A stretch of DNA of 64,000 bases, taken from assembly GCF_008365275.1 (NCBI RefSeq), contig NZ_CP043504.1:2294001-2358000 (forward strand). The letters run 5' to 3'. The notes beneath the pieces were generated by a model that saw only the letters and a program-made list of their open reading frames with translations, was not told the DNA's origin and did no database searches. The stretch is from Protaetiibacter larvae (GTDB lineage: Bacteria > Actinomycetota > Actinomycetes > Actinomycetales > Microbacteriaceae). The translations under genes were made by a program, and so were the position numbers. Positions 1-14,256 of the stretch are shown piece after piece (within the stretch, counting starts at the first letter, position 1; every line of letters starts with the position of its first letter).

Positions 1-566
<566 letters not shown>

Positions 567-648
567 GGCCTTTCGAGCCTAAGCAGGCTCACCAGACTCC
601 CCGGCTGCGACACTCCCCCTGTTCGGGATCAGCCGACCCCGTTCGGGA

Positions 649-1092
649 TCAGTCGGCGGCGCGCTCGGCGAGGCGTCGCTGCAGCTCCGCCTTCGACATT
701 CGCGAGTAGTTCGGGATACGCAGGTCGCGGGCGCGCGCCCGAAGCACGGCGTAGGTCTCGTCGGCGGGAGCCGTCGCAGCCGTCGGCTCGACGGCGGGAG
801 GGGCGGTCTCGACCACGTCGGCGACGGCTTGGGCGGCCTTCTTCGCCTGGGCCTTCACCCGGGCGGCGGCCTTCTTCTCGGCCTCCTTGGCCTTCTCCTT
901 GGCCTTCTTGGCCTTCGCCTTCGCCGCGGCGGCAGCCTTCTTCGCCTGCGCCTTGGCCTTCTCCTTGGCCTTGGCGGCCTCCTTCTTGGCCTTCTCCTTC
1001 GCCTTGGCGGCGGCCTTCTTCGCCGTGAGCGCGGCGGCTTCGCGCTCCTTCGCCTTCGCGCTCTTCTTCTTGCCGGAATCCTTCGATGCCAC
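649..1092 (-). CDS. Lys/Ala-rich, histone H1-like protein with C-terminal SAP/Rho-N-like motif
   Basis: A 147-residue basic protein. Residues about 1-95 are a nearly pure Lys-Ala(-Glu) stretch, like the tail of histone H1 or of actinobacterial HU fusions. Residues about 112-147 (YAVLRARARDLRIPNYSRMS and following KAELQRRL) look like a short SAP or Rho N-terminal helix-extended-loop-helix. Binding to DNA or RNA is inferred from composition only. The start is a GTG preceded by a strong GAGGAGG ribosome site. It is divergent from the poly-amino acid synthetase gene, and the two share an intergenic region with a perfect inverted repeat. No specific function is recognised. Confidence 0.75.
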   Translation of the reverse strand: MASKDSGKKKSAKAKEREAAALTAKKAAAKAKEKAKKEAAKAKEKAKAQAKKAAAAAKAKAKKAKEKAKEAEKKAAARVKAQAKKAAQAVADVVETAPPAVEPTAATAPADETYAVLRARARDLRIPNYSRMSKAELQRRLAERAAD

Positions 1093-1142
1093 GTTGCCTC
1101 CTCGGATGTCGAGCCCCGCTCTGGTGCGCCGATCCTAGTGAG

Positions 1143-1171
1143 GCAAAGTGAACGATGGCGGTTCACTTTGC
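1143..1171. promoter_or_regulatory. Perfect 11-bp inverted repeat between divergent genes, likely operator
   Basis: Arms GCAAAGTGAAC (1143-1153) and GTTCACTTTGC (1161-1171) are exact reverse complements separated by 7 bp. The site lies between the divergent Lys/Ala-rich gene and the synthetase gene. A candidate -10 box TATCCT (1177-1182) for the synthetase follows directly, and a TAGGAT box (complement of 1132-1137) faces the other way. Position and symmetry suggest a dimeric repressor site that could control one or both genes. The regulator is not identified. Confidence 0.6.
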
Positions 1172-1221
1172 TCGCGTATCCTGTGGCCCGCATTTTCCCG
1201 CGGCACAGACACAAGGCGGAC

Positions 1222-4200
1222 ATGGTCGACGAATCGGATGCGCGCGATGAAGCGCCAGGGCTTCTTCTCGCGGGTGGGTCGGCGCCCGAGCCGCGCACCC
1301 TGCTCGACATCCTGCGGGCGTCGACGCTCGCCTGGCCCGACGCCTCGGCGCTCGACGACGGCGAGGGCGCGCTCTCGTACCGCGAGCTCATGGCCCGGGT
1401 GGTGGCGACCTCGGCACGCCTGCGGATCGCCGGGGTGCGACCGGGCGACCGCGTCGGGGTGCGGATGCCGTCGGGATCGCGCGAGCTGTACATCTCGATC
1501 CTCGCGGTGATCGCCGCCGGCGCCGCATACGTGCCGGTCGACGCCGACGATCCCGAGGAGCGCGCGGAGCTCGTGTTCCGCGAGGCCGGGGTGCGCGGGA
1601 TCATCTCGGGCGCGGGGCGCTACGAGCCGGCGGCGGCCTCCGCCGATGGCGCCGAGCCCGCGGCGGAGGCGGCGACGCTGTTCGCGGGGGCTCCCCCGCA
1701 CCCGAGCACCTCCTCGACGCCGCTCGTCGAGCCGCCGACGACCGAGCACGACGCCTGGATCATCTTCACCTCCGGCTCCACGGGCACCCCGAAGGGCGTC
1801 GCCGTGACCCACCGCTCGGCGGCGGCGTTCGTGGATGCCGAGGCGCGCCTGTTCCTGCAGGGCGAGCCGATCGGTCCGGGTGACCGGGTGCTCGCGGGGC
1901 TCTCGGTGGCCTTCGACGCCTCGTGCGAGGAGATGTGGCTCGCCTGGCGCAACGGCGCCTGCCTCGTGCCGGCACCGCGAGCGCTCGTCCGCAGCGGCGT
2001 CGACCTCGGTCCGTGGCTCACCGCGCGTGGCATCACGGTCGTCTCGACCGTCCCGACCCTCGCCTCGCTGTGGCCGGCCGAGTCGCTCGAGAACGTGCGG
2101 CTGCTGATCTTCGGCGGCGAGGCCTGCCCGCCCGAGCTCGCGGCGCGACTCGCGGTCGACGGGCGCGAGGTGTGGAACACCTACGGTCCCACCGAGGCGA
2201 CGGTCGTCGCCTGCGCTGCGCTCCTCGACGGCAGCGATCCGGTGCGCATCGGCCTGCCGCTCGACGGCTGGGATCTCGCCGTCGTGGATGCCGAGGGCCG
2301 GCCGGTGGCCGACGGTGCGGTCGGTGAGCTCATCATCGGCGGCGTGGGGCTCGCCCGGTACCTGGACCCCGCGAAGGATGCCGAGAAGTACGCCCCCCAC
2401 GAGGGCCTCGGCTGGGCGCGCGCCTATCGCAGCGGCGACCTCGTGCGCTTCGAGCGTGCGGGACTCGTCTTCCAGGGGCGCGCCGACGACCAGGTGAAGG
2501 TGGGCGGACGCCGGATCGAGCTCGGCGAGATCGAGGCTGCCCTGCACCTGCTCCCCGGTGTCGCCGGCGCTGCGGTGGCCGTGCGCGAGACCGCGGCCGG
2601 CAACCAGGTGCTCGTCGGCTACCTCGCCGTGCCCGACCCCGCGGGCTTCGATCGGGCCGCCTCGATGACACGACTGCGCGAGGAGCTGCCCGCGGCGCTC
2701 GTCCCGCTGCTCGCGGTGCTCGACGAGCTGCCCGTGCGCACCTCGGGCAAGGTCGACCGCGCGGCGCTCCCCTGGCCGCTGCCCGAGGCCACCCCGGAGG
2801 AGTCGGACACCGACCCGGGGCTGCGGCGGCTCGCGGAGCGCTGGCAGGCGGTGCTCGGCATCCCGGTCGCCGACCCCGACGACAACTTCTTCGACCTCGG
2901 CGGCGGCTCGCTCGCGGCCGCCCAGCTCGTGACGCTCATCCGGGAAGACGATCCCGAGTTCACGGTCGCCGAGATCTACGCCCAGCCGCGACTCGGAGCG
3001 ATGGCCGACGCGCTCGCGGCGCGCTCGGAGCTTCCGGGGCACGGTCCGAAGAGCTTCCACGAGGTCGCCCCCACCCCGCGCCGGATGCAGCTGGCGCAGA
3101 CCGTCCTCGGCATCCCGCTGTACATCCTGAGCGGTGTGCGCTGGCTGCTCTACCTGTTCACGGCGAGCGCCATCCTGCAGGGCTTCGGCGGCTTCGCGGT
3201 GCTGCCGACCATCCCGCTCGGGGTGCTCATCCCGGGCCTCATCGTGTTCGGGACCCCGATCGGCCGGATGGCCATCGCCGTCGTGTGCGCACGTCTCGTG
3301 CTGTGGGGGCTGCGGCCGGGCGACTACCCGCGTGGCGGAGGCGTGCACCTGCGGCTGTGGGTGGCCGAGCAGGCGGCGCAGCTCGTGGGAGCGGTGAGCC
3401 TCGCGGGGGCTCCGTGGATCAGCTACTACGCGCGGGCACTCGGGGCGAAGATCGGTCCCGACGTCGACCTGCACACCCTGCCGCCGGTCACCGGCATGCT
3501 CACGGTCGGCGCGGGAGCGTCGATCGAGCCGGAAGTGGACCTCTCCGGGTACTGGATCGACGGCGACATCGTCCGGATCGGCGCGATCCGCATCGGCGCG
3601 GGCAGCTCGGTCGGGGCACGCAGCACCCTGGCACCCGGAACCCGCATCGGCAAGCGCGCCGAGATCGCGCCCGGCTCGGCGGTGTTCGGTCGGGTGCCCG
3701 CCGGGCAGTACTGGGCCGGCTCCCCCGCCCAGCGCGAGGGTTCCGCGCGCGCCTGGTGGCCCCCGGAGCGGCCGGCCGGCGGGCGGCGCTGGGTCGCCGC
3801 CTTCGGGGTCTCCTCGGTGCTGCTGTCGCTCATGCCCGTGCTCGCGCTCGCGGCCGGCGGCATCCTCGTGGCGCTCGCCATCCACGGTGCGCCGACGCTC
3901 GCCGATGCCGTGCTGCGGGGGTTCCTGGAGCTGTTCCGCGCCACGATCGTGGCGGGCGTGCTGTTCGCGGGCCTCGTGGTGCTGAGCGTTCGGCTGCTGT
4001 CGATCGGCGTGGGCGAGGGCACCTTCCCCGTGCGCAGCCGCGTCGGCTGGCAGGTGTGGAGCACCGAGCGCCTCCTCGACCTCTCCCGCACCCTGCTGTT
4101 CCCCCTCTATGCCAGCCTGTTCACGCCCATCTGGCTGCGGATGCTCGGCGCCACGGTGGGCCGCGACGTCGAAGCCTCGACCGTGCTGCTGCTGCCCACC

Positions 4201-5205
4201 ATGACGACCATCCGCGACGGCGCTTTCCTCGCCGACGACACCATGGTCGCCGGCTACGAGCTCGGCGGCGGGTGGTTGAGGATCGCGCGCGTCGAGGTGG
4301 GCAAGCGCGCGTTCATCGGCAACTCGGGGATGGCGGCCGCGGGCCACGTGGTGCCGAAGGACGGCCTCGTGGCGGTGCTCTCGGCGGCGCCGGTGAAATC
4401 GAAAGCCGGTTCGTCGTGGCTCGGCTCCCCGCCCGTGCGTCTGCGGCGCACGATCGCGGCTGCCGACGACAGCCGCACCTTCCATCCGCCCGCCTGGCTG
4501 CGCATCGTGCGCGGCCTGTGGGAGCTGTGCCGCATCGTGCCGGTGTTCGTCACCTGCGGCATCGGGTTGGGCGTGCTCTTCGCGCTCGCCGCGCTCGCGA
4601 ACGCCTGGGGCTCGCTCGTCGCGCTGCTGCTGAGCGGCGTGGTGCTGCTGGTGGCCGGGGCTGTGGGCGCCGGGATCAGCACGGCGGCGAAGTGGGCGTT
4701 CGTCGGACGGATCCGCGCCGCCGAGCATCCGCTCTGGTCGTCGTTCGTGTGGCGCAGCGAGGTGGCCGACACCTTCGTGGAGATGGTCGCGGCGCCCTGG
4801 TTCGCCCAGCCCGCCGCGGGAACCCCCGCCCTCGTCTGGTGGCTGCGGAGCCTCGGTGCGCGCATCGGACGCGGCGTCTGGTGCGAGAGCTACTGGCTGC
4901 CCGAGGCCGACCTCGCGCGGCTCGACGACGGCTCGACCGTCAACCGCGGGTGTGTGGTCCAGACCCATCTGTTCCATGATCGTGTCATGAGCATCGATTC
5001 GGTCACGCTCGAGCGTGGTGCCACTCTCGGGCCGCACAGCGTCATCCTCCCCGCGGCGCGGATCGGTGCGCACGGCACCGTCGGGCCCGCCTCGCTCGTG
5101 ATGCGCGGCGAGCTCGTCCCGGTGGGCAGCCGCTGGAGCGGCAACCCGATCGGGCCGTGGCGCGAGGTGACGACCGCCGACTACCACCTCGCCTCCTCGC
5201 GATGA
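1222..5205 (+). CDS. Pls/PosA-family membrane nonribosomal peptide synthetase (epsilon-poly-amino acid synthetase)
   Basis: A 1327-residue protein, close in length to epsilon-poly-L-lysine synthetase Pls of Streptomyces (about 1319). Order: adenylation domain (about 30-515) with A3 FTSGSTGTPKG (from about 182), A5 NTYGPTEAT (319-327), A7/A8 YRSGDLVRF and GRRIELGEIE, A10 lysine K510; carrier domain with DLGGGS, phosphopantetheine serine S563; then about 700 residues with several hydrophobic segments and hexapeptide-type repeats (e.g. IGAGSSVGARSTLAPGTRIG), as in the Pls C-terminal tandem domains that link monomers in place of a condensation domain. Binding-pocket residues read D232-A233-E236-S275-I296-G298-T320-V328-V329-K510, which resembles lysine-type codes from memory. 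Start is ATG 1222; the longer upstream frame is shadow. Its stop overlaps the next start (ATGA). Product identity is inferred. Confidence 0.9.
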   Translation: MVDESDARDEAPGLLLAGGSAPEPRTLLDILRASTLAWPDASALDDGEGALSYRELMARVVATSARLRIAGVRPGDRVGVRMPSGSRELYISILAVIAAGAAYVPVDADDPEERAELVFREAGVRGIISGAGRYEPAAASADGAEPAAEAATLFAGAPPHPSTSSTPLVEPPTTEHDAWIIFTSGSTGTPKGVAVTHRSAAAFVDAEARLFLQGEPIGPGDRVLAGLSVAFDASCEEMWLAWRNGACLVPAPRALVRSGVDLGPWLTARGITVVSTVPTLASLWPAESLENVRLLIFGGEACPPELAARLAVDGREVWNTYGPTEATVVACAALLDGSDPVRIGLPLDGWDLAVVDAEGRPVADGAVGELIIGGVGLARYLDPAKDAEKYAPHEGLGWARAYRSGDLVRFERAGLVFQGRADDQVKVGGRRIELGEIEAALHLLPGVAGAAVAVRETAAGNQVLVGYLAVPDPAGFDRAASMTRLREELPAALVPLLAVLDELPVRTSGKVDRAALPWPLPEATPEESDTDPGLRRLAERWQAVLGIPVADPDDNFFDLGGGSLAAAQLVTLIREDDPEFTVAEIYAQPRLGAMADALAARSELPGHGPKSFHEVAPTPRRMQLAQTVLGIPLYILSGVRWLLYLFTASAILQGFGGFAVLPTIPLGVLIPGLIVFGTPIGRMAIAVVCARLVLWGLRPGDYPRGGGVHLRLWVAEQAAQLVGAVSLAGAPWISYYARALGAKIGPDVDLHTLPPVTGMLTVGAGASIEPEVDLSGYWIDGDIVRIGAIRIGAGSSVGARSTLAPGTRIGKRAEIAPGSAVFGRVPAGQYWAGSPAQREGSARAWWPPERPAGGRRWVAAFGVSSVLLSLMPVLALAAGGILVALAIHGAPTLADAVLRGFLELFRATIVAGVLFAGLVVLSVRLLSIGVGEGTFPVRSRVGWQVWSTERLLDLSRTLLFPLYASLFTPIWLRMLGATVGRDVEASTVLLLPTMTTIRDGAFLADDTMVAGYELGGGWLRIARVEVGKRAFIGNSGMAAAGHVVPKDGLVAVLSAAPVKSKAGSSWLGSPPVRLRRTIAAADDSRTFHPPAWLRIVRGLWELCRIVPVFVTCGIGLGVLFALAALANAWGSLVALLLSGVVLLVAGAVGAGISTAAKWAFVGRIRAAEHPLWSSFVWRSEVADTFVEMVAAPWFAQPAAGTPALVWWLRSLGARIGRGVWCESYWLPEADLARLDDGSTVNRGCVVQTHLFHDRVMSIDSVTLERGATLGPHSVILPAARIGAHGTVGPASLVMRGELVPVGSRWSGNPIGPWREVTTADYHLASSR

Positions 5206-6521
5206 CCGCGAAGTCGGTGGGGGCGCCGACCGCGGGCGATGCGTACCTGCCGAACAACGGCAACGGCGGCTACCAGGTGGAGCGCTACGAGCTCGACCTG
5301 GACTACCGGGTGCCCACCAACCGGCTGCACGGCGTCGCGACGATCCGGGCGCGCAGCACGCAGCTGCTCGAGCGCTTCAGCCTGGATATCGCGAAGCTGC
5401 GGGTGAACAAGGTGCGGATCGAGGGCCAGCGCGGCACGCGATTCACCCAGACGGCGCGCAAGCTCGTCGTGTCGCCCGCCCGGCCCCTCTCGGCGGACGA
5501 GGACTTCGTGCTCGTGGTCGACTACGCGGGCTCCCCCGCCCCGATCCGCAGCCGGTGGGGTCTCGTCGGCTGGGAGGAGCTCGGCGACGGGGTGATCGTC
5601 GCCTCGCAGCCCTCCGGATCGCCCAGCTGGTTCCCCGTCAACGACCGTGTCGACGACAAGGCGCGGTACAGCATCCGGATCCGCGTCGATCAGGCCTACA
5701 CGGCGGTCGCGAACGGCGTGCTCGTGGAGCATCGGGTGGCCTCGGGGATCGGGCACTGGCACTACGAGCAGAACGAGCCGACCGCGAGCTACCTCGCGAC
5801 CATCCAACTCGGGCGCTACCAGCGCCGGGCGGTCGACTGGGCGGGCGTGCCCGGGGTGATCGCATACCCGCGCGCGATCGAGCGGCGTGTGGACGACGAC
5901 CTCCATGCCGTCGGCGGCATGATGTCGTTCTTCCAGGACCGGTTCGGCCCGTATCCCTTCGCGAGCTACGGGATCGTCGTCACGGCGGACGAGCTGGAGA
6001 TCCCCCTCGAAGCGCAGGGGCTCGCGGTGTTCGGGGCCAACCACCTCGACGGCCGGGGCGGCTCGGAACGGCTCGTCGCCCACGAGCTCGCCCACCAGTG
6101 GTTCGGCAACAGCGTGGGCCTCGCCTCCTGGAAGCACATCTGGCTCAACGAGGGCTTCGCCTGCTACGCCGAGTGGCTGTGGTCGGAGCATTCGGGCGGG
6201 ATGAGCGCCGACGGCTGGGCGCGGCATCATCGCCGGCTCGTCGCGCTCCAGCCGCGCGACCTCCTCGTGGGCGATCCCGGCCCCGACGCGATGTTCGACG
6301 ACCGGGTCTACAAGCGCGGCGCCCTCACGCTGCACGCGCTCCGCACCGCCATCGGCGACGAGCCGTTCTTCCGCCTCATCCGCACCTGGACCTCGCGCCG
6401 CCGCTTCGCCACGGCCACCACCGACGACTTCCGCGAGCTCGCGACCGAGATCAGCGGGGCGAACCTCGACCGGCTGTTCCGCAGCTGGCTGTTCGAGACC
6501 TCGCTCCCGCGGCTGCCGTAG
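5202..6521 (+). CDS. Short M1-family zinc metallopeptidase, coupled to the synthetase
   Basis: 439 residues with the gluzincin site H294-E-L-A-H298 and E317 in NEGFACY, the zinc ligands of M1 aminopeptidases. Instead of the usual GxMEN substrate motif it has E270-A-Q-G. It is about half the length of PepN and lacks the large C-terminal helical domain; no signal peptide is seen, so it is probably cytosolic. The ATG overlaps the synthetase stop as ATGA, so the two are translationally coupled. In poly-lysine producers the polymer-degrading enzyme is also a zinc aminopeptidase, so trimming or detoxifying the polymer is the likely role, by inference. Confidence 0.9.
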   Translation: MTAKSVGAPTAGDAYLPNNGNGGYQVERYELDLDYRVPTNRLHGVATIRARSTQLLERFSLDIAKLRVNKVRIEGQRGTRFTQTARKLVVSPARPLSADEDFVLVVDYAGSPAPIRSRWGLVGWEELGDGVIVASQPSGSPSWFPVNDRVDDKARYSIRIRVDQAYTAVANGVLVEHRVASGIGHWHYEQNEPTASYLATIQLGRYQRRAVDWAGVPGVIAYPRAIERRVDDDLHAVGGMMSFFQDRFGPYPFASYGIVVTADELEIPLEAQGLAVFGANHLDGRGGSERLVAHELAHQWFGNSVGLASWKHIWLNEGFACYAEWLWSEHSGGMSADGWARHHRRLVALQPRDLLVGDPGPDAMFDDRVYKRGALTLHALRTAIGDEPFFRLIRTWTSRRRFATATTDDFRELATEISGANLDRLFRSWLFETSLPRLP

Positions 6522-6533
6522 TCCGCGCCGTCG

Positions 6534-7145
6534 TCACCGGGCGATGGCGACCGACACCTGCAGCGTTGCGGCGAGGTCGGGCTCGTCGAGCAGGTAGCGC
6601 GTCGGGCGGTCGGCGATCCGGGCCTCGAGACGCCCGCCGCGCGGTGCGATCTGGACCGCGCGGGGGTCGACGCGCAGCCCGCGACCGTCGGCCTTGAGGA
6701 CGGCCTCCACGCGCGTCCAGTGCGCGAGCCCCCGTCCCCCGGCGACCTCACGGATCGCGGGGCTGCTGCGGGCGGTCGCCGCGAGCGGCTCGATGTCGAC
6801 GCCGATGTCGCGGCCCCACGCGGCCACCGCCACGACGCCGACCGCGGAATGGGCGAGACTCACCCGCAGCTCGGATCCCTCGACCACCGGCCGGCCGTGC
6901 GGGCCGCCGCAGTCGGGGCACACCGCCGCGAGCGGCACCTCGTGCGGGGCGAGCCCCAGCTGCTCGCCCGCCAGGCGCCGCAGCAGCGCGCGCCCGGCGA
7001 GGAACCGCGCACCCGGGGTGAGCGCGGACTCGTCGAATCGGCGCCGCTCGACGGCCGACAGCAACGCGAGCTCGCTCTCCCCCGCGGCCGCGGGATCCAG
7101 ATCGACCGCCCAGACGTAGGGATCCACCCGGCCAGTCTGGGACAT
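6534..7145 (-). CDS. 4'-phosphopantetheinyl transferase, Sfp-like
   Basis: 203 residues with family motifs in order: CGGPHGRP, VSLAHSAVG, GVDIEP (the Mg-binding Asp and Glu) and WTRVEAVLKADGRGL. Such enzymes move the phosphopantetheine arm from coenzyme A onto carrier-domain serines. The obvious local substrate is S563 of the synthetase at 1222-5205. In the third motif the usual W-x-x-K-E-A has V in place of K, while the Glu and the later Lys are kept. It is convergent with the M1 peptidase gene, with 12 bp between them. Confidence 0.9.
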   Translation of the reverse strand: MSQTGRVDPYVWAVDLDPAAAGESELALLSAVERRRFDESALTPGARFLAGRALLRRLAGEQLGLAPHEVPLAAVCPDCGGPHGRPVVEGSELRVSLAHSAVGVVAVAAWGRDIGVDIEPLAATARSSPAIREVAGGRGLAHWTRVEAVLKADGRGLRVDPRAVQIAPRGGRLEARIADRPTRYLLDEPDLAATLQVSVAIAR

Positions 7146-7186
7146 CGAGGGGGCGAGTGTTCACCTCGATGCGCCATGATGCGCAC

Positions 7187-7384
7187 ATGGCTACGGCATT
7201 CGACCCGGAAGAGGTCGTGGAGCAGGTCACCGGCCGGCTCATCGAGAGGTTCCCCGACGCCGATGCGGCGCAGATCCGGACCATCGTGGCGGAGGAGGTG
7301 GGTGCCCTGCAGTCGATGCCGGTCACCGACTACGTCTCGGTGCTGAGCGAGCGGGCGGCGAAGAAGCGCATCAAGGCGCTCTGA
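7187..7384 (+). CDS. Small three-helix-bundle dimerization-type protein
   Basis: 65 residues, acidic to neutral and all helical in appearance: an N-terminal EEVVEQVTGRLIERFPDAD segment, a middle QIRTIVAEEVGAL segment and a basic C-terminus AAKKRIKAL. The pattern matches the small actinobacterial 'three-helix bundle dimerization domain' proteins, whose function is unknown. The ATG at 7187 is preferred over an upstream in-frame ATG because the family begins near here. It lies between the divergent phosphopantetheinyl transferase gene and prfB. Confidence 0.6.
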   Translation: MATAFDPEEVVEQVTGRLIERFPDADAAQIRTIVAEEVGALQSMPVTDYVSVLSERAAKKRIKAL

Positions 7385-7396
7385 GCCCGACCGGCG

Positions 7397-8503
7397 CTAG
7401 TCGACGGGCTTCGACTTGCGCCAGCGGATGCCCGCGGCGATGAAGCCGTCGAGGTCGCCGTCGAACACGACGGCCGGGTTGCCGACCTCGTACCCGGTGC
7501 GCAGGTCCTTCACGAGCTGCTGACCGTAGAGGAAGTAGGAGCGCATCTGGTCGCCCCAGCTCGCGGTGATGACGCCCGCCAGCTCCTTCTTCTTGGCCGC
7601 CTCCTCCTCCTTCTTGAGCAGCAGGAGACGGGTCTGCAGCACGCGCATGGCGGCCGCGCGGTTCTGGATCTGGCTCTTCTCGTTCTGCATCGACACGACG
7701 AGGCCCGTGGGCAGGTGGGTGAGGCGCACGGCGGAGTCGGTGGTGTTGACGCTCTGGCCGCCGGGACCGGATGAGCGGAAGACGTCGACGCGGATGTCGC
7801 CCTCCGGGATCTCCACCTCGACGGCCTCCTCCATCACCGGGATCACCTCGACGGCCGCGAAGCTCGTCTGACGCTTGTCGGCAGAGCCGAAGGGGCTGAT
7901 CCGGGCGAGACGGTGGGTGCCGGCCTCGATCGAGAGGGTGCCGTAGGCGTAGGGGGCGTCGACCTCGAAGGTGGCCGACTTGATGCCGGCGCCTTCCGCA
8001 TAGGAGGTGTCCATGACCTTGACCGGGTAGTTGTGGCGCTCCGCCCAGCGCAGGTACATGCGCAGCAGCATCTCGGCGAAGTCGGTGGCGTCGTCGCCGC
8101 CCGCACCCGAGCGGATCGTCACGACCGCGCTGCGCGAGTCGTATTCGCCGTCGAGCAGGGTCTGCACCTCGAGGTCGCCGATCTGGGACTGCAGGGCCGC
8201 GTACTCCTGCTCGGCCTCGGCCGCGACATCCGCGTCCTCGGCCTCGCGCGCGAGCTCGATGAGCACCTCGAGGTCGTCGAGGCGCCGCTCGAAGCCCGTG
8301 ATGCGGGCGAGCTCCGCCTGGTGGTGGCTCAGCGCGCTCGTGACCTTCTGGGCGGCCTCCGGGTCGTCCCACAGGTCGGGCGCACCGGCCTTCTCGGTGA
8401 GGTCGGCGATCTCGGCCTGCAGTCGCTCGACGCCGACGACGGCACGGATGTCGTCGAAGGTGCTGCGAAGGGTGGCGAGCTGGGCGGGGAGGTCATCGAG
8501 CAT
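7397..8503 (-). CDS. prfB: Peptide chain release factor 2
   Basis: 368 residues, full family length. It carries G248-G249-Q250, the peptidyl-tRNA hydrolysis motif, and S203-P204-F205, the tripeptide that makes RF2 read UGA and UAA. It ends translation on the ribosome. The frame is continuous from the ATG at 8501-8503, with no programmed +1 frameshift at the N-terminus such as E. coli has. A TAGGCT box lies 8 bases before the start on this strand. ftsE is usually immediately downstream in actinobacteria; here it is displaced by the poly-amino acid block. Confidence 0.97.
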
Positions 8504-8539: not shown

Positions 8540-9769
8540 ATGACCGCCCCCGCATCCGACGCCCGCTTCCCGTGGCGCCAGGTGGTCGTGGCGGCGTTCC
8601 TGCCCACGATCCTGTTCTCGATCGGCGAGGGCGCCATCCTGCCGATCATCCCGATCGTCGCGCACCAGCAGGGCGCGGGACTCGCCGGCGCGGGCCTCAT
8701 CGCGGCCATGATCGTGATCGGCGAGCTCATCGGCGACATCCCGGCCGGCGCGCTCGTGGCGCGGATCGGCGAGCGTTCGGCGATGATCGGCGCCTCGGCG
8801 CTGTCGATGATCGGCGTGCTCGCCGCGGTGCTCGCGCCGAACCCGTGGGTGCTGGGCATCGGGATCCTGCTCATCGGCGTCGCGACCGCCGTCTTCGCGC
8901 TCGCCCGGCACGCCTTCATGACGAGCTTCGTGCCGCCCGTCTACCGCGCCCGCGCGCTGTCGACCCTCGGCGGCACCTTCCGGCTCGGCTACCTGATCGG
9001 GCCGTTCATCACAGCCGCCGTCATCCAGGCGACCGGGGTGGCGGTGTACGCGTTCTGGATCCACCTCGTGGCCTGCCTCGCGGCGATCATCGTGCTCATC
9101 GTGCTGCACGATCCGGCGGACATCGTCAGCCAGCGTCCGCGCGCGGGCGAGCTGGAGGCGATCGAGGAGGGGCGCGGGCTGTTCCGCACGATCGTCGCGA
9201 ACCGCGGGGTGCTGTTCACCCTCGGCACCGGCTCGGCGCTCGTGGCGGCGCTGCGCTCGAGTCGCCAGGTGATCCTGCCGCTCTGGGCGGTCTCGATCGG
9301 CATCCCGGAGGCGAGGACCGCCCTCATCATCGGCGCTGCGGCGGCGCTCGACTTCGCGCTGTTCTACGCGGGCGGCTGGATCATGGACCGCTTCGGCAGG
9401 TTGTGGACCGCGGTGCCGTCGATGATCGGCCTCGGTGCCGCCCACCTCATCCTGGGGTTCACGCATGACGTGCCGAACGCCGAGACCTGGTTCATCGTCG
9501 TCGCGGGGCTGCTGTCGCTCTCGAACGGGATCGGCGCGGGCATCCTCATGACGCTCGGCGCCGACCTCGCCGACCCCGCGCATCCGGCGCAGTTCCTCGG
9601 GGCGTGGCGCTTCACGAACGACACGGGGGCGGCCGTCGCGCCGCTCATCATCGCGGGCGTCACCGCGGTCGCCGGGCTGCCGGTCGCGGCCGCCGCGATG
9701 GGGGTGCTGGGCCTCATCGGCGCGGCCGACCTGCGCATCTTCGTGCCGCGCTACTCGAAACGCCGCTGA
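8540..9769 (+). CDS. Major facilitator superfamily transporter
   Basis: 409 residues with about 12 hydrophobic segments and a loop 2-3 motif GDIPAGALVARIGER close to the MFS signature G-x-x-x-D-R-x-G-R/K. The long inner loop near residues 195-215 divides the two halves. It most resembles drug or metabolite efflux carriers; the substrate cannot be told. A TAGCGT box lies 9 bases before the ATG. Its last 19 bases overlap the end of the surface protein gene on the other strand. Confidence 0.85.
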   Translation: MTAPASDARFPWRQVVVAAFLPTILFSIGEGAILPIIPIVAHQQGAGLAGAGLIAAMIVIGELIGDIPAGALVARIGERSAMIGASALSMIGVLAAVLAPNPWVLGIGILLIGVATAVFALARHAFMTSFVPPVYRARALSTLGGTFRLGYLIGPFITAAVIQATGVAVYAFWIHLVACLAAIIVLIVLHDPADIVSQRPRAGELEAIEEGRGLFRTIVANRGVLFTLGTGSALVAALRSSRQVILPLWAVSIGIPEARTALIIGAAAALDFALFYAGGWIMDRFGRLWTAVPSMIGLGAAHLILGFTHDVPNAETWFIVVAGLLSLSNGIGAGILMTLGADLADPAHPAQFLGAWRFTNDTGAAVAPLIIAGVTAVAGLPVAAAAMGVLGLIGAADLRIFVPRYSKRR

Positions 9770-12700
9770 CGGCGGCGCCCGATCGCGAGACCGGCTGCGC
9801 CGAGCAGCAGAAGGAGCAGTCCGGCGGGGAGCAGCCAGGCGGGCGTCGAGACCCCCGTCGCCGCGATCGCGGCGCGCCCGTTGTGGGCGACACACGCCAC
9901 CTCGGCGCCCGGCAGCAGCACGAAGTCGCTGGGGTCGACCGCGACCCCGCCCGCCTCGCAGCTGAGCGAGGTGAGCAGATAGCCGGGCGCATCGGTCTCG
10001 AACAGGCGATAGTGCTGTCCGGGTACCAGGCTCTGCTCCTCGCCCGGGGCGAAGATGTGCACCGTCGCCTGCGCCTCCGGGACCAGAAGCGGCGGGATCC
10101 AGGCGGCTCCGAAGCGGAAGTCGTCCGGATCCGCGGAGCCGTCGTCCACGATCTTCGCCACCGTCATGAACGCGGTCGTGTTGCGCGCCGTGCACTCGTA
10201 GTGCATCCCGAGCGGCACGATGATCGCGCCCTCCGCCGAGAGCGAGAAGTCGCGCGAGGTGGTGCCCGCGGGGCCGCAGTCCCACGACCCGCTCGAGCTC
10301 GGATAGACGAGCGGGATGCTCCGGATGTCGTGCTGCTGATAGTGGTAGGTCTCGTGCTCGGGTGAATCGGGTGCGGCCGCGGCCGGCCGGTCTTCGCGCA
10401 GGCTGTACGGCGCGTCCGGCACCACCTCGGAGGTCACCCCCGTCAGCCCGCTGAACTGCTCGAGCGGCAGCACGCCGACCGACGGCGTCGCGATGGCGTT
10501 CAGGGTCCAGAGGTTCTCCCCCGCGGGGGTGTCGAGCACACCGTTCGTGACGTCCTTGATGAGGGTCAGCGTGCTCGCGCAACTGACGACGTTCGTGATC
10601 GTCCATTCGTTGACGCCCGCGACGAGCGGATGCACGACACCCGGGTCGACCGGGTCGGTGCCCGGCGGACCCGCGGGCCCCGGACGGATGTTCCGGTCGG
10701 TGATCGTGCATCCCGGCATGCCCTCGATCGTCGCCTGCTCGTCGATGCGGACGCTGTTCGCCGGGCTCTCGGCCGCGGGGGTCACGAGGTTGTATCCCGT
10801 GCGCTCCACGCTCCACTGCTGCGGCGTGAGGGTGTCGGCGTCGGGACCGGTGATCTCGAGCGCCGCCGACATCCCGGAGGGTTGCGCGCCGTCGGGCAAC
10901 GAGGAGACGCCGACCGCGCTGTGCAGCTCCCACATCTTGTGCACCACGACCGAAGCGGGCACGCTGCGGGGCGGCTCCTGGTTGTACACGGTGCAGCTCA
11001 CGATCTGCTGCGCCCCGATGCTCACCGAGAACGCCGTGTTCGGCTCACCCGCGTCGGGGGTCGCCGTGATCGGCACATCCGCCCCGGTCGACCGCTCGAC
11101 GCAACGGGTCTGAGCGGGGAGCGGGGTGAAGGTCGAGTGCGGTGCCGTCGCGTTCTGCTCCTCGACGCGGATCTGACCGACCAGGTCCGTCGCCTCCGAC
11201 CCGAACGACAGGTCGAACGAGAGCGCCCCGGTGCCGAGATCGGTCTGCTCGACGGGGTTCGCGATCGCGACGGGCGTGGCCCCGATCGACGAGCCCTCGA
11301 AGGTCCACGCGTCGCCGGGCAGGTAGGCGTTGGTGATGTTCCCGTCCCCGTCGAATTGGGGGCCGGTCGCAGGAACGATGCGCTTGATGACGGAGAGCGA
11401 CGGTGCGCAGCTGGCGAGCACGACATCCCGCAGCGCGTTCCCGGCGGCGACATAGTCGCTCGTCTGCAGGTAGTCCGCCTCGAGGAAGTTCGCCCCGCCG
11501 AAGGCGTCGCGACCCGACACGGTCCGAAGGTTCGCGGCCGCGCCGGTTCCCGCCACGCCGGCCCCCACACCCACCGCGAGGATCCGCGTGCCCTGCTCCT
11601 TCAGCAGATTCGCCGAACCGAGTCCCGCGCTGAGCTCCCGGAACCGGGTGTAGCCGCTCGTGGTGTCCTTGAGCGCGGAGTTCGGGTTGTTCGGGTTCAC
11701 GAGCGGCGAGCGCCCGTACACGGTGGGGTTCCCGTCGGTGAGGAACACGGCGAGATCAACGTGCGTGGGCGAGCCGGGGGGACCGTTGGCGTCGGCTGCG
11801 GCGGCGAACCCGCGATCCCAGTTGGTGTAGTTGGTGGGCCATCCGGCGGTCGTCCAACCCGCGTAGCGGTTCTTGAACGCGGTGGCCTCGCCCGTGGTCG
11901 CCACCGAGACGAGCGGGCTGTTCGCCCCGAACATGGTGCCGTATGCGGGCGAATCGGTGCCGAAGGTGTAGAGCGCCACGCGCGAGGGCGTGCCCCGGAG
12001 CGCGTCGACGAAGGCGTCCATCGCCCCCTTCAGCCGACCGACGGGGTCCGGATTGCCCGCGCTCGTCGTCGCGACCGAGCTCGAGACGTCGACGATGAAG
12101 GCCACGTCGAGCCCGCACTGGTCGATCATGTCGAGGTTGAACCGCGAGAAGGCGACCACGCCGCTCGAGGCGATGCGTCGCGTGTAGTTCGGTGCGGTGT
12201 TCTGCGGCGCCGTCTGCAGCCCGGGCGAGCTGATCCAGTCGTCGCCGGAGAGATAGCTGGTGTTGGCGACGAGGCGCGGACTCTGCCACACGTGACGCAG
12301 TTCGATGAGCGGGTCACCGCCGCTCGGACTGAGCGGACCGGTCTGCCAGAACGGGTTCGCGTAGTAGCCGTTCGGCGCCGCGAGGCTCGCCAGGTAGAGC
12401 CGCGTCCCCTCGGGAACGCCCTGGCCCTGCCCCGGGGCGAGGTTCATGTACGGCGCGGTCTGCGTCGCCCCGACGGTCGCGACGCCGCTGCGGATCGGCA
12501 CCTGGAACACGCAGTCGCCATCCAGGTCGGAGACGCACACGAAGAACAGCTGGTGGGTGGCATCCGGCGTCGCGAAGCCGTTGACCGCGTCGATCCGGGC
12601 GGAAGGCTCGACCAGGAAGAGGCCGAGAGTGACGCCCGCGAGGGGCGCCAGGGTCGTGTCGCTGTCACGGTAGTCGGCGACGCTCACCTGCAGCATCGCC

Positions 12701-12840
12701 ATCCCCGGCTCGGGCGCGGGGATGGCGGCCCGACTGGGTGCCGTCGCGGCGGGGAGCGCAGCGACGACGACTCCTGCGGCGAGGGCGGCCAGCGCGGCGA
12801 GACCACGGCGAACGACGCCCTCGCGCCGGTGAGATCTCAT
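9751..12840 (-). CDS. Large surface protein with von Willebrand A and pilin-like domains
   Basis: 1029 residues. A signal peptide (about 1-38) is followed by an N-terminal prealbumin-like region, a von Willebrand A domain with the metal-site motif D251-V-S253-S-S255 and a later FLTDGNP, then several Ig/Cna-B-like repeats (each with 'TLTPQ..', 'LTLIKDVTNG', 'MTVAKIVDDG' type strands). It ends in a membrane helix WLLPAGLLLLLLGAAGLAIG and a basic tail RRRQRR, with ATGVSTPAW in front, so it is anchored without a clear LPxTG. The ATG at 12840 is chosen over an upstream GTG because GGAGG lies 10 bases before it. It is next to Tad pilus genes and may be an adhesin tip. Confidence 0.85.
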   Translation of the reverse strand: MRSHRREGVVRRGLAALAALAAGVVVAALPAATAPSRAAIPAPEPGMAMLQVSVADYRDSDTTLAPLAGVTLGLFLVEPSARIDAVNGFATPDATHQLFFVCVSDLDGDCVFQVPIRSGVATVGATQTAPYMNLAPGQGQGVPEGTRLYLASLAAPNGYYANPFWQTGPLSPSGGDPLIELRHVWQSPRLVANTSYLSGDDWISSPGLQTAPQNTAPNYTRRIASSGVVAFSRFNLDMIDQCGLDVAFIVDVSSSVATTSAGNPDPVGRLKGAMDAFVDALRGTPSRVALYTFGTDSPAYGTMFGANSPLVSVATTGEATAFKNRYAGWTTAGWPTNYTNWDRGFAAAADANGPPGSPTHVDLAVFLTDGNPTVYGRSPLVNPNNPNSALKDTTSGYTRFRELSAGLGSANLLKEQGTRILAVGVGAGVAGTGAAANLRTVSGRDAFGGANFLEADYLQTSDYVAAGNALRDVVLASCAPSLSVIKRIVPATGPQFDGDGNITNAYLPGDAWTFEGSSIGATPVAIANPVEQTDLGTGALSFDLSFGSEATDLVGQIRVEEQNATAPHSTFTPLPAQTRCVERSTGADVPITATPDAGEPNTAFSVSIGAQQIVSCTVYNQEPPRSVPASVVVHKMWELHSAVGVSSLPDGAQPSGMSAALEITGPDADTLTPQQWSVERTGYNLVTPAAESPANSVRIDEQATIEGMPGCTITDRNIRPGPAGPPGTDPVDPGVVHPLVAGVNEWTITNVVSCASTLTLIKDVTNGVLDTPAGENLWTLNAIATPSVGVLPLEQFSGLTGVTSEVVPDAPYSLREDRPAAAAPDSPEHETYHYQQHDIRSIPLVYPSSSGSWDCGPAGTTSRDFSLSAEGAIIVPLGMHYECTARNTTAFMTVAKIVDDGSADPDDFRFGAAWIPPLLVPEAQATVHIFAPGEEQSLVPGQHYRLFETDAPGYLLTSLSCEAGGVAVDPSDFVLLPGAEVACVAHNGRAAIAATGVSTPAWLLPAGLLLLLLGAAGLAIGRRRQRRFE

Positions 12841-12893
12841 GAACGCTGCACCTCCCACGAATCCGGCAAACCACGAGACGAACTCACGACGAC

Positions 12894-12907
12894 GGGAGAA
12901 TTCTCCC
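12894..12907. promoter_or_regulatory. 14-bp perfect palindrome upstream of the surface protein gene
   Basis: GGGAGAATTCTCCC lies in the 93-bp gap between the surface protein start and the end of the TadF-like gene. It is upstream of the surface protein on the minus strand, where a TTGACG -35-like box also occurs. A dimeric regulator site is possible; no regulator can be named. Confidence 0.3.
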
Positions 12908-12933
12908 TACTGTCCCTCGAATAGGTGACGGCG

Positions 12934-13395
12934 TCAACCGAATACCGAGCGGGCGGTGGCCGTGGCGTCGATCCGGATGCCGTCCGGAACGAACACCGTC
13001 ACGACGGGGGGACGCCACGTGGACGACACGGTCACGGTCGCGCTGCGACCGTCGGGGGTGAAGGCGGCGTCGACCGCGAGCTCCTCGAACTCGGGCGTCG
13101 GGTTGCCGTCCAGGTAGGCCGCGACGGCGGCGGAGACCTCCTCGTCGGTGAGCAGCGGTCGCGGACCCGAGGGGGTGAGCGCGACCGCATCCAGCTCGAA
13201 GGCTTCGGCGCCCACGAGCGCGGCGCCGTCGGCGAGGGTGAAGAGACGCTTCTTCTCGAGGTAGAGCGAGGTCGCGGCCGTGACGACGAGCACCACGGCG
13301 AGGGCCAAGAAGCCGAAGAAGATCGTCAGCGGCAGGATCGATCCCTCGTCCCCGGCGAACGCCGCGCGCCGCCGCCGGAGCGCCTGCCCTGTCAC
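12934..13395 (-). CDS. TadF/Rv3654c-like pilus assembly protein
   Basis: 153 residues: a short basic N-terminus, one membrane helix (PLTIFFGFLALAVVLVVTA) and an extracytoplasmic domain. The GDEGSILPLT start of the helix and LADGAALVGAEAF fit the actinobacterial Rv3654c-type minor pseudopilins of Tad loci. The start is GTG 13395, forming a GTGA overlap with the preceding gene, so the two are coupled. It probably helps build a Tad/Flp pilus. Confidence 0.75.
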   Translation of the reverse strand: MTGQALRRRRAAFAGDEGSILPLTIFFGFLALAVVLVVTAATSLYLEKKRLFTLADGAALVGAEAFELDAVALTPSGPRPLLTDEEVSAAVAAYLDGNPTPEFEELAVDAAFTPDGRSATVTVSSTWRPPVVTVFVPDGIRIDATATARSVFG

Positions 13396-13877
13396 GACCC
13401 CGCCCGGAAACGCGACACCTGCTCGGTCGCGATCGCCCGCACCGGGACCCCGACGGGCACATCGAGGCCGAGCACGGGCGGGGCGAGCGGCAGGGGCACC
13501 ACCGTCACGAGCTCGACCGTGACGTACCCGCGCCGAGCCAGGCAGTCGTCGGGGACCGGGCGACAACTGATCGCGACCGTCGCCGCATCCGCGTCGATCC
13601 CGTAGTCGGCGAGCGTCACCCGGATCGCGCGCTCGGCTGCCGCCTGCGCCTCGGGGAGCGTCCCGGCCTGCACGAACACCCGGGTGGCCTGCCGTGCGGC
13701 ACCCTCGACGCCGAGTGAGGCCGCCTGCAACGCCGAGACGGTGAGCACGAGGTACACGAGCGGCACGAGCAGCAGCAGCCCGGTGGTGATGAACTCGAGC
13801 GACGCCGAACCCTCCTCGCCGCGCGCCCGCTCGGCGAGGGGGTGCAGCCGCTCAGTCCAGCGTCTCGCGCGCCGCAT
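13392..13877 (-). CDS. TadE-like minor pseudopilin
   Basis: 161 residues. After a basic stretch, EEGSASLEFITTGLLLLVPLV is a TadE-type processing site plus hydrophobic helix with the conserved Glu. The outside part contains C-R-P-V-P-D-D-C, a possible disulfide. The ATG at 13877 follows a strong GGAGGTGGAGGG ribosome site and lies inside the end of the previous gene, so translation is coupled. Role: minor subunit or assembly factor of the Tad pilus. Confidence 0.8.
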   Translation of the reverse strand: MRRARRWTERLHPLAERARGEEGSASLEFITTGLLLLVPLVYLVLTVSALQAASLGVEGAARQATRVFVQAGTLPEAQAAAERAIRVTLADYGIDADAATVAISCRPVPDDCLARRGYVTVELVTVVPLPLAPPVLGLDVPVGVPVRAIATEQVSRFRAGS

Positions 13878-14256
13878 GGCCCTCCACCTCCAGAGCACGA
13901 TCCGCGCCGAGCAGGCCGACGAGCGGCAGGGTGGTGCGCACGGTGACGATCACGGCGGGCGCCCCCATCCACGAGCCCGCGCGCACCTCGATCTCGCGCG
14001 CGTAGTCGGGGCCGATCGCGGTGCTGATGAGTTCGGCCGTGCGCGGCCCCGCGTCCGCGGGGGTGTTGTCGGCGAGCGCCCCGAACCGCGCACCCTCGGC
14101 CGCCGCGTCGAGCACGGTGTTGCGGATGTGCAGCGCGAGGGCGAGCTGCAGCACCGCGAGGGTGAGGAAGGTGAGCAGCACCCCCACGAGCACGAACTCG
14201 ACGGGGGCGGATCCGGTGTCGTCCCGGAGCGCGGCCCGGAGGCGCCCGGCGACCAT
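13852..14256 (-). CDS. TadE-like minor pseudopilin
   Basis: 134 residues with the TadE signature DDTGSAPVEFVLVGVLLTFL: short basic leader, Glu at +5-like position and a single membrane helix, then NTVLDAAAEGARFGAL as in TadE proteins. It starts 3 bp after the stop of the pilin gene and overlaps the next TadE gene by 26 bp, giving a tight pilus operon. Confidence 0.82.
   Translation of the reverse strand: MVAGRLRAALRDDTGSAPVEFVLVGVLLTFLTLAVLQLALALHIRNTVLDAAAEGARFGALADNTPADAGPRTAELISTAIGPDYAREIEVRAGSWMGAPAVIVTVRTTLPLVGLLGADRALEVEGHAARETLD

Follow-up and report, generated by a model that had tools for sequence, protein, structure and literature searches.

The window analysed here, a stretch of 64,000 nucleotides from Protaetiibacter larvae, carries a pls gene followed by an M1 peptidase gene and a convergent phosphopantetheinyl transferase (PPTase) gene, with a lysine-rich gene upstream. 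This cassette sits between the core genes prfB and ftsE and is an intact member of an already published system (PMC8117764, PMC4361855, PMC9223678). The features are as follows.

1..566, minus strand: ftsE, left flank, cut by the window edge; assigned by eye and from the gene order in relatives
649..1092, minus strand: probable cassette gene for a lysine/alanine-rich protein with a SAP-like tail, 147 aa; upstream of and divergent from pls
1222..5205, plus strand: pls, epsilon-poly-L-lysine synthetase of the Pls/PosA type, 1327 aa; assigned from the open reading frame, profiles and pocket
1330..2751, plus strand: A domain of Pls, residues about 37-510, pocket DAESIGTVVK
2827..3015, plus strand: carrier (T) domain of Pls, residues 536-598, PF00550 at 48.8 bits
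3094..5151, plus strand: membrane C-terminal polymerising region of Pls, residues 625-1310; assigned from TIGR02353, hydrophobic regions and a threefold repeat
5202..6521, plus strand: M1 metallopeptidase of 439 aa, likened to PldII for its position; its start overlaps the pls stop as ATGA
6534..7145, minus strand: Sfp-like PPTase, 203 aa; convergent with the M1 gene
7397..8503, minus strand: prfB, right flank; assigned by eye, with 88% identity or more in nine of nine genus genomes

Architecture of the synthetase

The Pls frame (1222-5205, plus strand) runs uninterrupted for 1327 aa with zero internal stops, and its product combines an A domain, a carrier domain and the entire TIGR02353 membrane region that define the Pls class. 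The NCBIfam profile TIGR02353 ('Pls/PosA family') matches at 705.3 bits against a cut-off of 423.1, covering profile positions 2-695 of 695, and the amino acid adenylation domain profile scores 348.4 bits; in Pfam, AMP-binding, PP-binding and Hexapep are all over cut-off. Three strongly hydrophobic regions in the C-terminal part (residues about 628-697, 856-932 and 1101-1158), together with a short DNA repeat in three copies (3432, 4137 and 4845; spacings of 705 and 708 nt), fit the tandem C1-C3 domains that form the C-terminal layout of Pls (PMC8117764, PMC10522769). These results bear out an earlier note on this DNA, which had proposed a Pls/PosA-type synthetase with an A domain, a carrier domain and a long membrane C-terminal part, and which had named loss of the TIGR02353-type region as the outcome that would speak against it; the profile matched at full length. 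Its description of the locus as complete stands in that synthetase, M1 peptidase and PPTase are all present, but it left out the lysine-rich gene at 649-1092 (minus strand), which seemingly belongs to the cassette.

Two other readings of the gene were discarded. An ordinary NRPS module was rejected on the full-length TIGR02353 match and on the Pfam scan, which found neither a condensation nor a thioesterase domain in Pls, and a decayed pls on the lack of internal stops and the intact motifs.

Substrate and relation to characterised enzymes

Among solved structures, the A domain is closest to 7wew, the 'Epsilon-poly-L-lysine synthase' of S. albulus (635.4 bits; 318 of 473 aligned residues identical, 67.2%), whereas the ornithine enzyme PosA (8g95) gives 203.7 bits. 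All ten pocket residues were located in Pls (D232, A233, E236, S275, I296, G298, T320, V328, V329 and K510). The code D-A-E-S-I-G-T-V-V-K had thus been read correctly at the outset; S. albulus Pls has the same residue at 10/10 positions, and 98 of the 99 aligned enzymes share the code. The codes reported for other substrates differ: the ornithine enzyme has DMEHNGTVSK, whose second residue is Met, beta-lysine goes with DGESISVVNK, and the PDAP/PDAB enzymes carry Phe at position 2 (PMC10522769). Because of the pocket identity with S. albulus Pls and these differing codes, a poly-lysine product is much better supported than an ornithine or diaminobutyrate polymer, and L-lysine is the well-supported predicted substrate of the window's Pls. 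Poly-lysine, the first guess of the earlier note, therefore gains from both the bit scores and the pocket; the grouping with enzymes of unrelated substrates that would have counted against it did not arise, 7wew being the top solved match.

That Pls instead polymerises ornithine, diaminobutyrate, diaminopropionate or beta-lysine is very unlikely. The wider enzyme family does make such polymers (PMC10522769), and one related genome encodes an enzyme with a differing pocket; however, the 10/10 match, the gap between 635.4 and 203.7 bits and the distinct ornithine and beta-lysine codes all argue against it, and these substrates were set aside on the pocket evidence. The enzyme with the differing pocket, L019 (genome G046), is the single exception among the aligned enzymes: it is of the Pls/PosA type, carries the pocket DFEYNGTVTK and is 38% identical to the window's Pls. 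Its Phe at pocket position 2 suggests a shorter diamino acid as substrate.

The pls-pldII pair of S. albulus shares with the window the architecture, the pocket, an adjoining peptidase gene and a 4-bp overlap of the two genes (PMC4361855), and differs in that the A domain is 67% identical; this comparison is confined to the pair, which in the window is flanked by the PPTase and lysine-rich genes. The C. variabile Pls locus, compared by description, resembles the window's in belonging to a non-filamentous actinobacterium. Its Pls produced epsilon-PL upon heterologous expression in S. coelicolor, and the same report notes a pls-peptidase operon, lists Pls homologues in Microbacterium and, in the searched part of its text, makes no mention of a PPTase beside C. 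variabile pls (PMC8117764). A. baumannii PosA, a delta-poly-L-ornithine synthetase, has the Pls/PosA architecture but differs in its pocket DMEHNGTVSK, its single-gene operon without co-transcribed neighbours (PMC10522769) and its far weaker A-domain match (203.7 bits). For this actinobacterium with its small genome, the comparison with a solved enzyme thus supports a lysine polymer as the probable product.

Genes adjoining pls

Conservation was assessed over 95 pls loci, namely the window's own, 14 found in relatives and, among named genomes, the best 80 of 590 confirmed relatives. All counts out of 95, and out of the 94 other loci, refer to this set including the best 80 of 590; it leans to close relatives and holds one genome twice, as L044 and L078, with identical Pls.

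The M1 gene begins with an ATG at 5202 that overlaps the pls stop as ATGA, a 4-base stop/start overlap, and the product of 5202-6521 matches Peptidase_M1 in Pfam at 101.2 bits, in agreement with the translationally coupled M1 peptidase described earlier. All 95 loci have an M1 ORF behind pls on the same strand, each with the HEXXH-x18-E zinc site; this ORF begins no more than about 2.1 kb beyond the end of pls, and in 71 of the 95 a start codon overlaps or touches the pls stop. Beyond this set, an M1 gene is annotated in the same place in two of three plasmid regions (Kitasatospora and Streptomyces), and none is annotated beside the R. opacus plasmid pls, where the gene table is incomplete. 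For pldII, translational coupling is described, and its product is named as the main degrading enzyme, with a place outside the cell membrane (PMC9223678). By a crude hydropathy measure, none of the 95 M1 ORFs has a strongly hydrophobic stretch at its N-terminus (the highest mean over 15 residues was 1.17), which makes either the location or the homology uncertain; the window's enzyme is called PldII-like for its gene place and the 4-bp overlap. The role of the peptidase in chain length is disputed, because inactivating Pld and PldII altered neither output nor chain length (PMC8506220), whereas repression of the peptidase gave longer chains (PMC9223678). We favour a role in recycling or protection.

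The PPTase retains GVDIE and WTRVEAVLK and thereby satisfies G-V-D-x-E and W-x3-E-A-x2-K, which we take to be the Sfp-type motifs. The G-D-E and W-E-K columns are invariant in a 16-row PPTase alignment. PF01648 scores 21.5 bits, below its Pfam cut-off of 25, and no PDB entry matches to E 0.01; for these two reasons we call the protein only 'Sfp-like'. Among five relatives scanned, L042, L085 and L113 pass the PF01648 cut-off and L071 and L094 do not. The phosphopantetheinyl transferase that had been recognised beside the synthetase is thus upheld by its motifs, though not by the Pfam threshold.

A PPTase homologue lies in 49 of the 95 pls loci. Nearly all of these are convergent and downstream (46 of 49); L144 has its PPTase downstream on the same strand, and the two upstream cases, L044 and L078, come from one and the same genome. 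Within the stretch examined, none of the 34 Mycobacteriales pls loci has one. Across 60 genomes, the window's own included, a PPTase is found somewhere in 15 of 15 pls genomes and in 7 of 45 without pls (Fisher p 3e-9, uncorrected for shared ancestry; G046, with its Pls-like enzyme of another pocket, was counted as pls-negative). It lies inside the pls locus in 11 of the 15 and elsewhere in G015, G041, G042 and G049. PP-binding matches in the window's genome number two, one being the T domain of Pls and the other an 86-aa frame taken for the fatty-acid ACP; the genome also has one other ACPS-family match. Given the co-occurrence across genomes and only two PP-binding matches in this one, the neighbouring PPTase is probably dedicated to Pls, which suggests that it is worth including in heterologous expression.

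The product of 649-1092 has zero Pfam matches over cut-off. A profile of its SAP-like tail, iterated over 106 loci that include the 95 pls loci (E below 0.01), retrieved 16 ORFs, every one directly 5' of pls (16 of the 95 pls loci) and within about 0.3 kb of the approximate pls start. The E-values of such an iterated search are inflated, and it is the constant position that serves as evidence. Fourteen of the ORFs share the strand of pls and two, in the window and L094, are divergent. In the Pls tree the 16 belong to a single Microbacteriaceae clade of 28 rows and are therefore not independent. SAP-like tails are present in 30 of 60 relatives' genomes, and G012 is one example of a genome in which lysine-rich ORFs with such a tail lie apart from pls; six of eight same-genus genomes have a SAP-tail match, where the protein differs in type and is much poorer in lysine. 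The gene is a probable fourth member of the cassette.

An unlikely alternative is that Pls and the M1 peptidase form the working unit, with the PPTase and lysine-rich genes as mere neighbours and Pls activated by another PPTase. It would account for the 46 of 95 loci without a nearby PPTase, all 34 Mycobacteriales among them, for the four of 15 pls genomes with the PPTase elsewhere and for the other ACPS-family gene in this genome. The confinement of the lysine-rich gene to 16 of 95 loci in a single clade also agrees with it, as the linkage may be a single inherited event. However, the distribution of the PPTase (present in all 15 pls genomes, in 7 of the 45 others and in none of the 8 pls-negative sisters), its convergent downstream position in 46 of 49 loci and the place of all 16 lysine-rich ORFs directly 5' of pls argue against mere adjacency. 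With considerable doubt, we propose that in Microbacteriaceae the four genes form a transferable cassette with an activator of its own, and that the lysine-rich protein is a working part of it which may act as a histone-like DNA/RNA coat, or as a polycation decoy or sensor, against the polycation made at the membrane. Shielding of nucleic acids by this protein is speculation, yet the gene offers a testable lead on how a producer tolerates its own polycation. A keyword literature search, which is no proof of novelty, found no description of a convergent PPTase and lysine-rich neighbour of pls. Within the limited coverage of such searches, no paper joined poly-l-lysine synthase with phosphopantetheinyl transferase, or poly-l-lysine with Microbacteriaceae and nonribosomal peptide synthetase; among the matches listed, none joined histone-like with poly-l-lysine synthetase.

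Proposed working and genomic setting

Taken together, the locus is very probably a cassette for the antimicrobial polymer epsilon-poly-L-lysine, with its own activator. Gene content, intact motifs, pocket identity, gene order and the absence from sister genomes are direct observations; characterised relatives lead us to predict the product, its length and export, and the targets of the peptidase and PPTase. The PPTase would attach the phosphopantetheine arm to the Pls carrier domain, and the A domain would activate L-lysine and then load the carrier. The membrane C1-C3 region would link lysines via their epsilon-amino groups, probably into chains of some tens of residues, and export the polymer, which the PldII-like M1 peptidase may cut for self-protection or recycling.

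A possible but less probable reading is that the locus is intact and silent, or that its polymer serves a purpose other than antibiosis, such as surface charge. In cultures of C. variabile neither epsilon-PL nor the Pls protein was detected (PMC8117764), so the window's locus may be silent too. Against this, all motifs are intact and pls is kept in a large share of the family: TIGR02353 is over cut-off in 164 of 398 sampled Microbacteriaceae genomes, a retention that indicates some selection on pls.

In the eight other genus genomes, prfB and ftsE are adjacent with no pls between them; none has a TIGR02353 match over cut-off genome-wide or a PPTase. Six of them have a gap of 77-187 nt; in G007 it widens to 0.6 kb and in G002 to 1.6 kb. 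The prfB-ftsE junction is thus a clear site, with the cassette in one lineage and missing in relatives. Unrelated open frames occupy this same-genus gap in L068 (9720-11333, 1.6 kb) and L069 (7976-8598, 0.6 kb), and the junction therefore seems to accept insertions repeatedly. Neither prfB, ftsX nor smpB lies near pls in any of the 94 other pls loci, whose flanks mostly span 5-8 kb, and the 21 ftsE matches among them are weak (26-39% identity).

Host families mostly hold together in a quick Pls tree, in which the window's Pls groups with a Rhodoglobus MAG and an actinomycete MAG; L019, L158, L052 and L050 were flagged as long branches, and only the family-level grouping and the 28-row clade were used. 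Both within-family transfer and sister loss are therefore possible, and the pattern at the prfB-ftsE junction may reflect either a gain of the cassette in this lineage or its loss from the sampled sisters. Composition was considered as a sign of recent import and is uninformative, because third-position GC is like that of neighbouring genes (cassette GC 0.737, window 0.714).

Pls relatives also occur on plasmids: at E 1e-100, 19 of the 72,556 records searched have one. Five Mycobacterium avium/intracellulare plasmids bear near-full-length relatives with 58% identity, and on a Rhodococcus opacus plasmid (L157, NZ_CP095404.2) a response regulator and a MarR regulator are annotated upstream of pls.

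A simple scan found no promoter-like or terminator-like sites in 560-7450, and Rfam at gathering thresholds returned two tRNAs only for the whole window. Further along, at 9751-14256 (minus strand), a possible pilus or surface locus was noted by eye, in which small TadE-like proteins come after a large secreted protein that has a von Willebrand-like region and, at its C-terminus, a hydrophobic anchor.
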